Made by a program: the position numbers and the translations under genes. Below the pieces are notes generated by a model. It saw nothing but the letters and a program-made list of their open reading frames with translations, was not told the DNA's origin and ran no database searches. From contig JAFSAU010000036.1 of assembly GCA_017442155.1 (NCBI GenBank), positions 1-64,000 on the forward strand: DNA of 64,000 nt, in the 5' to 3' direction. The DNA comes from Clostridia bacterium (GTDB lineage Bacteria > Bacillota > Clostridia > UMGS1883 > UMGS1540). Below, in pieces: positions 1 to 7,765 of the stretch; position 1 is the first letter of the stretch; every line of letters begins with the position of its first letter.

Positions 1-3000
1 AGCGGATTTTTGCCGGAGGTACCGGTCATTACATAGTTGTATTCATCATCATAGCCTACAATCTGACCGGTATAATCCTTATCGGTCGTTGCGGTGGGGG
101 CACCGGAGAGACCGTCGCCCAGTGCAACGCTAAAGGAATAGAAGATGTATACGGTTGCTTCGCCCGCTTCGGCGGGGGTAGCGTCAATGGTGTTTGCGGC
201 CCAGCCGGTGTCAACGGTGGCTTCGGTCACTTTGAATGCACCGGAATAATCGTCGGGGGTGTCGGACTTTGCAGTAAAGGAAAGCTGCTTTACAACCTTG
301 CCGTCCACCTTGTCAGCACCGTAGATCTTAAAGCGAAGCGTGTTTTCATCCACAGCCTCCACGCTACTGCTGTTTTGGTTCCAGGTAAACAGCTTATTGT
401 CATAGTCCATAGTGACTTCTGCCACGTTCCAGGGAGCATCACCATGGAGGTCCTCGATAGAAACCTCAACAAGGAAGCTGCCCTTGGGGTCAATCTTTAT
501 AGCGTTTTCGCCGGAAACCTTAGTGCCGCCAACGGGGGTGAGCACGGTTTTGAAGCCGTAATCCTCTTCTGATACCCAAACGGCTGTGTAAGTCGTGGGT
601 GCATAGGCCTGCTTCTGCACTTCCTTGTCCCAGCCCCGGAAAATGTGACCGTCTCTGGAAAAGTCGGTCGGAGCATTGATTTCTTCGCCGTAGTTCAGAA
701 TAAAGGATTCACTTACGTATCCATCCGCATTTGTGCCGCCGCCGAAGTCAAATGTAATCAGCACCTGACCCTCTGACGGTTCATCGTATACACGATACAG
801 TGTATCATCATTCACATCTGCGATGTTATTGTAAAGCAGGATGTCACGGCTTGCAGTTTCATTTGCCGCAATAGCCGACTTTGCAGCCTCAAGTGCTTTG
901 GCAAAGTCAAAATAATCCACGTCGTTATATTTAGCTACATAAGTGCTGATTTCTTTCTGAACGCTAACGCCTTCGCCTATTGCATTTACTTTATAAGTAA
1001 GTCCGGCCACGGTACCGCTTTCATTGATTGTGTTGCCGGTTGCAGTCGCCTTCAGGCTCTCTTTGTCTGTGTAAGACGTAATAGAGAGATTGGAATCATT
1101 GAGTGTGTTGCCGGTAAATACAATTTCTCCGGATGCGCTTAAAACAACCGAACTACCGTTAAAAGTACAGCCGGTTACGGTCACTTTCTTAACATCCGTT
1201 CCTCGCTCGTTATCGCCAATGGTGCGACGTGACCAATTTATAAATTCACATTTATTGATTGAGACTTCAACATCATCAATTACCGCAGTTGCACCTTCGC
1301 CATAAACAATAGCCACGGGTTTTGTCGCATTGGGATTGCCTATAAAAGTACAATTATCTACAGTAAGGTTTGAAGAAGCAGAAATAGCGCGTGTCCAGAT
1401 AGAACTGTGCGTTGCTCCGCTCATATCTATTATTAAATTTTTGAACGTCACCGGAGCGGTCGCACGAAAAGCAGCTGTGTAATTATTTCTGTCGAATATT
1501 TCACAGGCAAATTTTATTGTATATTTGTTCTCACCGCCATCAATGGTACATGGAACATCAATGTCAAGGTCTGTATCATTTGGGTTAGTGTTCCACTTTT
1601 CTGTAATCGTAACATTATCTAAAAGGGTAAGGGTTTCATTTTCTCCAAGTGCACTCAAGGCTTCTGCAAAGTCGGCGAAAAATTTGTCATCGCCTATTTT
1701 GGCAACGGCCAGCACAACAACACCAATTCCGTTTTCGTCAACTTTCACTGTGAGTTCTTTGTCGCTTTCGTTTATAACATTTACTGTTCCGCTGAAGCCT
1801 GATAAATCAAGATTTGTTGACTGCGAGCCGGATGTATAATCAAATTCTGTAGCGTCAATTACCAGTGTTCCGTTACCGGTAATAGCTGATGCACTTAAAC
1901 TATTGTTTAAGCCAATAGTGAGCGTGCCGCCTTCTTCTATGTGGATTACATCAGCACTTACGCCGGCTGTTTGTCTTGCTGCTGTAAGCGTTTCGTTATC
2001 GATTGTTAAACTTCCTTTGCGCGTAATGGTAAGGTCACCAACCCGAAGCGTTGCATTTTCAATAGTTGTTTTTCCGGTTATATTGATTGTGGCTTCTTCT
2101 TCAATAATCATAGCAGACCCGTTTTTCATGGTAAGATTCTGCAGTGTTACCGGCTCCACTGTGGTGCCTTCTGCTTCGTCATCCAGAACAATGGTGGAAT
2201 TATCCATCGTAAGGTTGTTGAAAATATTTCCCGTTGTGCTGTAGTAGGTCGGTTCATTCATAAAATTGTGGCCTTTTACAGTCATAGATGAATCTGTCAT
2301 TGTTTGTTTATACCACGTGTTTTTGCCGAAGGCCACAATACCCTTAACATACAGTTCTGAATCGTTAATGGTAGCAGCGCCTGTAAAGCCTAAATCTGCC
2401 ACTTTAATAATGGCGTTGTTTGCAATGAGCTTACCATTATAGAGCACCGCAATGCTCATATCCTGATAACTTCCTTTATGGAAGTCGATTACGGCCTTTT
2501 TCTCTGCACCTGCCGCACCTACGGTTAGCGTGTTTTTAATATGGCTGTTTCCGATACCTGCACTTGTGGGTCTTGCCGACGGTACTCTTCCGCCCGGCTC
2601 CACGGTGACAGGATATGTCATGTCCCACTTACTGAGTGCATTACCACATTCCGCACCATCCTGCACAACGACCGCCAGCTTCGAGCAATTTTTATGATTG
2701 TTATCGAATGTATTGCCCGATAAGCTGCTGTTTTTTTCAATGATTATCGTTGCGTTTTTTGAATTTACAGAAGCATAGGCGTATGCACTGGCATAGTTTG
2801 CGAAATGGGTCTCGCCCCAGCCTTCGGTTTCGGAGGTATAATCTGAATTGACGTAAAGAGTAGGTAATGTTGCCAGTAATTGCACGGCCGCTTCGTCAGC
2901 CGGTTCCTCCGTCATTTCAACTTCTGTTTGTTCGGGTGCTTCTTCGGAAATTGCAGCAGCTTCGTCTTCTGCAAATACGAAGGTTCCCATCATGCTCATC

Positions 3001-3047
3001 ATCATAGCTATTGCCAGAATAGAGCATAGAAATTTTTTAAAATTCAT
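1..3047 (-). CDS. Large secreted beta-helix/InlB-repeat surface protein (3' part missing)
   Basis: The leftward frame is open from the ATG at 3047 to the window edge, over 1015 codons, so the C-terminus and any anchor are off-window. An AAGAAGGA ribosome site precedes the start. Residues 1 to about 26 form a signal peptide (MNFKKF then a hydrophobic stretch, ending near VFAE), followed by an acidic stretch rich in Glu/Ala. Residues about 80-740 are Asn/Thr/Gly-rich short strands with recurrent phrases such as TFIGN, TFNGS, NLTMDN and ATINIT, typical of right-handed parallel beta-helix proteins. Residues about 760-820 resemble an InlB B-repeat (FDFGGGTN... HIFRGWD... YTAVWV), and about 830-1000 look like a cohesin-type or Ig-like sandwich. 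It is probably an adhesin or polysaccharide-binding surface protein; the ligand is unknown. Its only visible promoter is within the invertible segment at 3199-3468, so expression is probably on/off. Confidence 0.85.
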   Translation of the reverse strand, partial: MNFKKFLCSILAIAMMMSMMGTFVFAEDEAAAISEEAPEQTEVEMTEEPADEAAVQLLATLPTLYVNSDYTSETEGWGETHFANYASAYAYASVNSKNATIIIEKNSSLSGNTFDNNHKNCSKLAVVVQDGAECGNALSKWDMTYPVTVEPGGRVPSARPTSAGIGNSHIKNTLTVGAAGAEKKAVIDFHKGSYQDMSIAVLYNGKLIANNAIIKVADLGFTGAATINDSELYVKGIVAFGKNTWYKQTMTDSSMTVKGHNFMNEPTYYSTTGNIFNNLTMDNSTIVLDDEAEGTTVEPVTLQNLTMKNGSAMIIEEEATINITGKTTIENATLRVGDLTITRKGSLTIDNETLTAARQTAGVSADVIHIEEGGTLTIGLNNSLSASAITGNGTLVIDATEFDYTSGSQSTNLDLSGFSGTVNVINESDKELTVKVDENGIGVVVLAVAKIGDDKFFADFAEALSALGENETLTLLDNVTITEKWNTNPNDTDLDIDVPCTIDGGENKYTIKFACEIFDRNNYTAAFRATAPVTFKNLIIDMSGATHSSIWTRAISASSNLTVDNCTFIGNPNATKPVAIVYGEGATAVIDDVEVSINKCEFINWSRRTIGDNERGTDVKKVTVTGCTFNGSSVVLSASGEIVFTGNTLNDSNLSITSYTDKESLKATATGNTINESGTVAGLTYKVNAIGEGVSVQKEISTYVAKYNDVDYFDFAKALEAAKSAIAANETASRDILLYNNIADVNDDTLYRVYDEPSEGQVLITFDFGGGTNADGYVSESFILNYGEEINAPTDFSRDGHIFRGWDKEVQKQAYAPTTYTAVWVSEEDYGFKTVLTPVGGTKVSGENAIKIDPKGSFLVEVSIEDLHGDAPWNVAEVTMDYDNKLFTWNQNSSSVEAVDENTLRFKIYGADKVDGKVVKQLSFTAKSDTPDDYSGAFKVTEATVDTGWAANTIDATPAEAGEATVYIFYSFSVALGDGLSGAPTATTDKDYTGQIVGYDDEYNYVMTGTSGKNP

Positions 3048-3198
3048 TTTTGTCCTTCTTTCTTTATAGTTGTACATATTCGGGAAAATCCGTTTCCCTC
3101 CGGGCGAAGAAATTGTTTTTCTACTGCTGCTTCTTCGCTGAAAACGCAGTGCTTACGTTCACCTCCGGTTGCTTACTGTTGTTTTGGCTGCGTTTCCA

Positions 3199-3218
3199 AC
3201 ATAATCGAAATTATGTGG
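3199..3218 (+). repeat. Left inverted repeat of the inversion switch
   Basis: The 20 bases at 3199-3218 are the exact reverse complement of 3449-3468 (CCACATAATTTCGATTATGT). The repeat is itself nearly palindromic around a TTCG centre. It lies between the surface-protein gene and its promoter. Confidence 0.85.
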
Positions 3219-3254
3219 GAAAAGATTACAGTACATAATACTGTTTGTTCGTTT

Positions 3255-3283
3255 AGTATAGCATCTTTTATGGCTTTTGTCAA
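3255..3283 (-). promoter_or_regulatory. Sigma-A promoter inside the invertible segment
   Basis: On the minus strand, TTGACA (3283-3278), a 17-base spacer and TATACT (3260-3255). Transcription would start near 3248, leaving an untranslated leader of about 200 bases before the surface-protein ATG at 3047. Confidence 0.85.
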
Positions 3284-3448
3284 CAAAATACGGTGATTTT
3301 TCCCTAAAATCAGCATAATGCAAAAAAATAGACATGCCAAAATAGACCGATTGAACAAAATTCATAGCTTTCGGTCTTGTTTTTGTGCCTGATTTCAGAC
3401 GCGAGAAAAAGATAAGAAATTTTTTAACGCTCAATTCGGAACGATATA

Positions 3449-3468
3449 CCACATAATTTCGATTATGT
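3449..3468 (+). repeat. Right inverted repeat of the inversion switch
   Basis: Perfect inverted partner of 3199-3218. This copy extends to a full palindrome, CCACATAAT-TTCG-ATTATGTGG (3449-3470). Confidence 0.85.
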
Positions 3469-3483
3469 GGTTTTTATTTTTTA
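3449..3483 (+). terminator. Rho-independent terminator formed by the right inverted repeat
   Basis: A 9-bp stem closed by a TTCG tetraloop (3449-3470) is followed by a T-rich run (3471-3482) on the plus strand. No rightward gene ends here. It would stop rightward transcription from the inverted (OFF) promoter before it runs antisense into the recombinase gene. Confidence 0.6.
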
Positions 3484-4317
3484 CAGCCGTAAAAGTCCGA
3501 GCTTTTGTATCTGTCGCCGGTGGACATCGCCTGTTTCCATCGTATAAATGCGGGTTGTGTTTATGCTGGAATGGCCGAGAATGTCGGCAAGGCGCACAAT
3601 ATCCTTCTGTACTGAATAATAGGTTCGCGCGAATAAATGCCGGAGGTTGTGCGGAAACACCTTTGTTTTGTCTACCCCTGCATCATGGCACAGGGATTTC
3701 ATCATTTTCCATATTGTGCTTCTGTCAAGCGGTTTGCCAGTTTTTGTGATAAAAACGGGTCCGCTTTTTATTTTTTGTCTCTGCGCATACTCCGATAGCA
3801 TTTTACAAAGTTCCTTTGGCAGAATAACAGTGCGCATTTTTCCTTTACATTGAATAATAGCTTTGCGGGCGCGTACAGCCTCGGCAGTAATGGCTTTTAC
3901 CTCCGACACCCGGATGCCGCTTGCACAAATTGTCTGCATCAGATAATAAAGTCTTTCGTTTTTTCTGTTCTTTGCCGCGGTGAGCAGATTCTGGTATTCC
4001 GCTTTGGAAAGCTCCTTGGTGCGGTCGGCAAAAATAGGCTTCTGAATTTTCAGCAGTTTAACCTTGAGCTTATGCCAGTTGCAAAACGTAAAAAAACTGT
4101 TAAGAGAGGATAAAATGGAGTTCACAGAAGCCGGAGCATACTTTGCATTTAAATGCGCCTTGTATTGGAGTACTGTCACTTTGTCAACCGTATGTCCGGC
4201 GAGCCATACATGAAAAGCTGTTACGTCGCGTATATACTTTTCAAGCGTTGCAGGGGATTTTTCTTCCTCGATTAAATGTTGTTTAAAGCTTGTAATACGT
4301 TTTTCTGTCAGTGTCAT
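3481..4317 (-). CDS. Tyrosine recombinase, probable promoter invertase
   Basis: A 278-residue integrase of the lambda-Int/XerC fold, intact. The N-terminal SAM-like core-binding domain is residues about 1-90. The catalytic domain (about 100-278) shows the full active-site set: Arg136 in SGIRVSE, Lys158/160 in CKGK, His223 and Arg226 in HNLRH, His249 in LGHSS and the nucleophile Tyr258 in TRIYTM. The length suits the small stand-alone invertases rather than phage integrases. The start at 4317 is supported by AAAGGA about 12 bases upstream. It lies beside the 20-bp inverted repeats at 3199 and 3449 with no phage or transposon genes nearby, so inversion of that segment is its likely job. Its own promoter is not clear; the upstream 4330-4360 is AT-rich. 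Confidence 0.85.
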   Translation of the reverse strand: MTLTEKRITSFKQHLIEEEKSPATLEKYIRDVTAFHVWLAGHTVDKVTVLQYKAHLNAKYAPASVNSILSSLNSFFTFCNWHKLKVKLLKIQKPIFADRTKELSKAEYQNLLTAAKNRKNERLYYLMQTICASGIRVSEVKAITAEAVRARKAIIQCKGKMRTVILPKELCKMLSEYAQRQKIKSGPVFITKTGKPLDRSTIWKMMKSLCHDAGVDKTKVFPHNLRHLFARTYYSVQKDIVRLADILGHSSINTTRIYTMETGDVHRRQIQKLGLLRL

Positions 4318-7719: not shown

Positions 7720-7765
7720 CGGACAACGGTCAAATGCGGATTCATCCGCATTTGACCGTTGTCCG
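7720..7765. repeat. Perfect 21-bp stem-loop
   Basis: 7720-7740 is the exact reverse complement of 7745-7765 with a TTCA loop (stem begins CGGACAACGG). No T run follows on either strand, so it is not a standard terminator. It could be an mRNA-stabilising or repeat-element hairpin. Confidence 0.7.

Follow-up and report, generated by a model that had tools for sequence, protein, structure and literature searches.

Does the short segment that lies between the gene for a large secreted protein and a tyrosine recombinase gene in this Clostridia bacterium serve as an on-off switch, and is the neighboring enzyme the one that would turn it? Invertible promoters served by tyrosine recombinases are a familiar arrangement, including in Clostridia (PMC2784873, PMC5386303, PMC5903667), and an initial annotation of the DNA had placed one near the start of the window, i.e., the whole 64,000-nucleotide stretch analyzed here. 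The present study favors, with a probability of about 0.9, a self-contained promoter inverton controlling the secreted protein. The locus has the attributes of promoter invertons, namely repeats that enclose a promoter directed at an outside gene, and an intact site-specific recombinase.

The inverted repeats described by the initial annotation were borne out. The two 20-bp arms, at 3199-3218 and 3449-3468, are 100% complementary with a spacing of 230 nt, and no other separated perfect inverted repeat of at least 17 bp, with its arms no more than 1.5 kb apart, exists in the 64-kb window. A point absent from that annotation is that each arm is itself near-palindromic, since ACATAAT and ATTATGT flank a 4-nt centre that reads CGAA on one strand and TTCG on the other. 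The 18-bp core thus has the layout ACATAAT-NNNN-ATTATGT. In the 64-kb window as well as in the whole 2.43-Mb genome, the core ACATAATNNNNATTATGT matched only the sites at 3199 and 3449, and a reversed control pattern gave 0 matches in the 2.43-Mb genome. The left repeat, hereafter the distal site (core ACATAAT-CGAA-ATTATGT at 3199-3216), is kept in relatives and lies, in the present orientation, within the 5′ leader of the surface-protein gene. The right repeat, the proximal site (core 3451-3468), is separated from the stop codon of the recombinase gene by about 13 bp. Between them is the putative invertible segment (3219-3448, 230 bp), which was delimited by the repeats and by alignment to relatives and is now in the ON orientation. 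A 97-aa open reading frame spanning the segment (3159-3452) has no Pfam match and was judged spurious. Elsewhere in the window, 22-bp arms that match perfectly flank a 2-nt loop (7720-7765); this inverted repeat is probably a terminator between convergent genes.

A promoter scan of the segment revealed a minus-strand promoter (3255-3283), with TTGACA at 3283-3278, a 17-bp spacer, and TATACT at 3260-3255, matching the consensus at 11 of 12 positions. A TG precedes its −10 element, making this an extended −10. The promoter is kept in relatives and reads left towards the start of the target ORF at 3047, just as the initial annotation had it. Upstream of the promoter and still inside the segment, a hairpin AGACCGA...TCGGTCT (3340-3380), kept in close relatives, probably insulates it from outside transcription. 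A terminator scan of the window picked precisely the proximal-site hairpin at 3448-3471 with TTTTTATTTTT. The resulting intrinsic terminator on the plus strand (3448-3481) comprises the proximal site and its T-run, with a 10-bp stem, a UUCG loop, and a fold of −10.9 kcal/mol. Across the related loci, a T-run (at least 6 T in the nine bases after the site) follows the proximal site in the direction into the recombinase gene in 57%, vs. 2 to 7% at the other three flanks. In the OFF state, the promoter would be directed at this hairpin, and the proximal site would thereby halt the OFF transcript ahead of any antisense passage through the recombinase gene. An Rfam scan of the window gave no matches; hence, the leader contains no known riboswitch.

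The target gene (3-3047, minus strand) encodes 1015 aa up to the contig end. The window begins at that end, inside the gene, and the C-terminus and any cell-wall anchor are therefore missing. The initial annotation had called the product a secreted beta-helix protein, and this description held in part. The N-terminus is signal-peptide-like, in keeping with secretion. Structure prediction gave confident repeated beta strands for residues about 455-675, whose best Foldseek matches were beta-helix lyases, albeit weak ones; the rest of the model was poor. A Flg_new/InlB-type repeat is located at residues 764-819. Homologues of the target are found under related switches in three other genomes, G020 (in the OFF state), G096, and G160, where they sit behind a TetR gene that is absent in the window.

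The recombinase gene (3481-4317, minus strand) encodes a 278-aa Xer-like tyrosine recombinase, the presumed invertase, with an N-terminal SAM-like domain and a catalytic domain (PF02899 and PF00589). Its active site is complete (R136, K160, H223, R226, H249, and Y258), which upholds the earlier claim of an intact enzyme 13 bases outside the repeats. The closest solved structures in the PDB are XerA and XerD. The best curated profiles are likewise XerA (147.9, cut-off 220) and XerD (137.3, cut-off 329.6), and the scores for XerC, XerD, XerA, and XerS all fall under their curated cut-offs, placing the enzyme outside these equivalogs.

Is the pairing of this enzyme with these sites a peculiarity of one genome? 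A scan of public genomes yielded at least 573 candidate relatives, and 55 of 60 relatives had some match. Homologues with 59 to 76% identity form a clear tier, as against 28 to 31% for ordinary Xer proteins and integrases, and are spread through the order and the class Clostridia; a more distant tier (44 to 58%) retains the same layout. In nearly all homologues with enough sequence, a site pair lies directly after the stop codon of the recombinase, in most cases no more than 50 bp away, and the stop codon lies inside the site at 19 of 121 loci. The second site follows about 150 to 500 bp beyond the first, and the gene beyond it reads away from the recombinase at 110 of 115 loci. The arms change with the recombinase subfamily, being of the ACAAAAT, ACAGAAT, ACGGAAT, or ACATTAT type. 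The initial annotation had held that its proposal would fail if the repeats were not conserved between strains; across species, the pair is kept beside the recombinase. Since almost every relative examined has both the recombinase and a site pair next to it, the neighboring recombinase is the natural candidate enzyme, and we infer that the protein encoded at 3481-4317 is cognate to the site pair.

Some loci depart from this layout. A third site with the same centre, directly repeated, is present at 21 of 121 loci (L003, L009, L042, L077, L158, L162, L166, and L167 among them), mostly 32 to 46 bp from its neighbor, and would allow two inversion lengths or a small deletion. Loci L039 and L214 have the recombinase and no recognized site pair. 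In genome G001 a single recognizable site is left, the distal one being absent, and in G003 the recombinase is a pseudogene with stop codons; both members look decayed. Sixteen IMG/VR viral contigs (L127-L142) also encode relatives of the recombinase, and most of those with enough sequence carry the site pair as well, an occurrence that reflects either prophage carriage or contig mis-assignment.

The centres of the sites also provide evidence that the two repeats belong together. The sites were located by their arms alone, and the centres were not used. At every one of the 121 non-redundant loci, one centre is the reverse complement of the other (shuffle mean 3.4, maximum 10). At the same time, 63 distinct centres occur among the 121 loci, and none is palindromic against an expected 6.7 (P about 0.001). 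Within pairs the centre is 100% identical, whereas across the family it holds 0.03 to 0.32 bits per position, vs. 1.4 to 2.0 bits in the arms. A second set, drawn from genomes with several copies and overlapping the first set, also covered subfamilies whose arms differ. Here the centres matched in 84 of 84 pairs; at several more distant loci of this set, no pair with the defining arms was found. For a tyrosine recombinase to act, its binding arms must be conserved, and the region of strand exchange must be homologous and directional. A centre that is matched within each pair yet varies freely between loci bears the signature of such a strand-exchange core, and this indicates that the two sites are partners. 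Furthermore, since the centre is non-palindromic and the sites are in inverted orientation, the expected outcome is inversion and not deletion.

Within a genome, paralogues whose arms are identical mostly have different centres (42 such pairs, e.g., in G551), and modules with identical arms number four of five in G551, three in G017, and four in G130. The sharing of a centre by paralogues within a genome depends on their divergence: 0 of 32 pairs below 60% identity, 6 of 40 at 60 to 80%, and 15 of 22 recent duplicates share one. Five of the 6 sharing pairs at 60 to 80% involve one G424 copy and its duplicates. Selection for private centres within a genome was considered and is not supported, as pairs taken from different genomes differ to the same extent, and duplicates of recent origin have centres in common. 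Different centres would, by analogy with tyrosine recombinase biochemistry, block cross-recombination. Genome G424 (2.7 Mb) carries ten recombinase copies (L243-L250, L212, and L213), several of them 98 to 99% identical and with the same centre, TGAT, a recent spread of the module that may bring cross-talk.

Both orientations of the segment can be recognized when relatives are compared. In the ten closest loci, the interiors align end to end once the OFF segments are turned round, with the order hairpin AGACCG...CGGTCT, then ATTGACA-17-TATAcT, then site. Five of the ten are ON (the window, L003, L042, L143, and L144) and five OFF (L002, L043, L045, L145, and L147); these loci come from different species, so that the evidence of inversion is comparative and not direct. 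Scoring by promoter assigned 23 of the 121 loci to ON and 65 to OFF, with 33 unclear, and scoring by homology to ON references gave 3 ON and 14 OFF, the others being too diverged. At L047, L056, L151, and L161, the segments are about 400 bp long and have a strong outward promoter near each end, and each orientation may drive the target from a promoter of its own. Taken together, the two orientations among homologous loci, the co-occurrence of enzyme and sites, the matched centres, and the direction of the target lend comparative support to the earlier proposal of a phase-variable switch flipped by the recombinase at 3481.

The switch would operate as follows. The recombinase would bind at 3199 and 3449, where the sites are near-palindromic and dif-like, and strand exchange in their common centre, T-CGAA-A, would invert the 230-bp segment. 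In the ON state, as assembled, the segment promoter would transcribe through the distal site into the secreted-protein gene. In the OFF state, the flipped promoter would face the 3′ end of the recombinase gene, the proximal site and its T-run would terminate the transcript, and the secreted protein would be silent. That the segment inverts in the present organism, through the action of this enzyme and with transcription following the promoter, is what the comparison leads us to expect.

Could the same observations be accounted for otherwise? If the repeats were mere transcription terminators (UUCG hairpins) and the recombinase a mobile-element integrase, the hairpin at 3448-3481, a good plus-strand terminator, would find a ready explanation. 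However, the T-run is present solely at the recombinase-side copy, and neither the occurrence of both orientations nor a loop tetramer that is reverse-complementary within every locus and free between loci would be explained. Besides, an integrase of this kind is at odds with the neighbors, which are ordinary chromosomal genes such as those we take, by sequence recognition, to be queA and tgt. This explanation is hardly credible. A decayed or locked switch whose promoter is now fixed ON is improbable, although the assembly gives one orientation for the species and decayed relatives exist (G001 without the distal site, and the G003 pseudogene). Against it, the recombinase ORF and its catalytic residues, the promoter, and the terminator are intact, and the sites are perfect, including the centre. 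The single orientation, the decayed members, and the pairless loci L039 and L214 are also counterpoints to the inverton itself, and the decayed-looking G001 and G003 imply that the presence of parts does not guarantee activity.

It may also be argued that the segment inverts but that the host chromosomal XerC and XerD act on the dif-like sites. The genome encodes other Xer-type recombinases, and the arms CATAAT and ATTATGT equal the inner arms of classical dif (PMC2731167). In contrast, a dedicated recombinase co-occurs with a site pair beside its own stop codon across nearly all loci and genera examined, and the arms covary with the recombinase subfamily, which is unexpected under a conserved housekeeping XerCD. 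A search for the host dif in the genome of the window returned candidates at chance level only. Inversion by the housekeeping enzymes appears very unlikely, and the dedicated recombinase remains the favored enzyme of the promoter inverton.

How does this inverton relate to known Xer systems? The E. coli dif site reads GGTGCGCATAATGTATATTATGTTAAAT. The table entry for this site has CATAAT and ATTATGT around GTAT (PMC2731167). The present module resembles Xer/dif: its enzyme has the catalytic core of the Xer type, and its sites have a short centre between dif-like arms that match those of E. coli dif exactly. With the single-recombinase modules XerS/difSL, XerH/difH, and XerA/dif in particular, it shares an Xer-like enzyme and a site beside the gene, and its CATAAT-NNNN-ATTATGT core is that of dif (PMC5357621, PMC2731167). 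Whereas Xer/dif has one site per chromosome near the terminus with a conserved centre, here two inverted copies lie 250 bp apart and 63 centre versions exist; moreover, the site pair flanks a promoter, the arms are nearly symmetric, and several modules occur per genome. From its sequence, the module looks like an Xer/dif module turned promoter switch. We give even odds to the full form of this idea: a domesticated Xer/dif in which the enzyme reads the arms, a drifting 4-nt core (6-nt with the fixed T and A) sets the recombination partners, paralogous switches with identical arms are kept apart by their cores alone, and the site doubles as the OFF-state terminator.

In C. difficile, RecV similarly flips short segments upstream of surface and motility genes at the cwpV, flgB, and pdcB/pdcC switches (PMC2784873, PMC5386303, PMC5903667, PMC9286219). 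RecV acts from afar on several sites, and Cdi7 is the single one of seven C. difficile sites with a recombinase close by (PMC5903667); in contrast, each switch of the present family carries its own enzyme and promoter. Ureaplasma XerC, an enzyme of the Xer type, has been shown to invert mba, a surface locus subject to phase variation; whereas mba alternates surface antigen genes, the present switch is a short promoter cassette beside its own enzyme gene (PMC3599477). The main text of a survey of the hCom2 gut community links inverton group 139 to invertase group 35 (Microbiome 2025;13:71, PMC11892184). As described there, group 139 comprises 33 invertons, 32 of them in Clostridia and nearly all with a nearby tyrosine recombinase; two examples have short repeats with about 205 to 230 bp between, and flipping was seen in reads from Intestinimonas butyriciproducens and Clostridium sp. 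D5 (PMC11892184). Geometry and taxonomy suggest that groups 139 and 35 may be the present family, although the published group 139 coordinates, looked up among about 400 genomes of the Oscillibacter family, did not yield a family locus. The main-text passages on group 139 are silent on dif-like sites, a variable core, and a terminator role (PMC11892184). In the open-access papers searched, we found no description of the dif-like site, the variable matched core, the terminator role, the site sequence, or the family.

Thus, a one-off prediction becomes a predictable class of promoter switches. An Xer-like gene followed by ACATAAT-NNNN-ATTATGT twice, inverted and with equal centres, allows switches to be found across Clostridia without reads, and the same rule identifies the enzyme, whether the switch stands ON or OFF, and the gene under its control. 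The core rule can be put to the test and could provide recombination sites that are incompatible with one another; if true, dozens of such natural inversion sites would be at hand.

The predicted targets include S-layer, dockerin, and BspA-type surface proteins, TetR regulators, chemotaxis and c-di-GMP proteins, and a TIR effector. Their domains range from SLH with InlB-type repeats, dockerin with lipase and cohesin, and BspA leucine-rich repeats to TetR, methyl-accepting chemotaxis, response regulator with GGDEF, and SPFH domains, and further to a helicase with HA domains and a CAP12/Pycsar-type TIR effector. At L070 (6266-7807), the gene under the switch encodes a TIR protein of the CAP12/Pycsar type that also has a cupin domain, which suggests that some family switches make defence-like effectors phase-variable. 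At L046 (7133-10045) and L172 (1209-3503), the switch stands ahead of a large helicase of the DEAD/ResIII type that has between five and eight helicase-associated (HA) domains.
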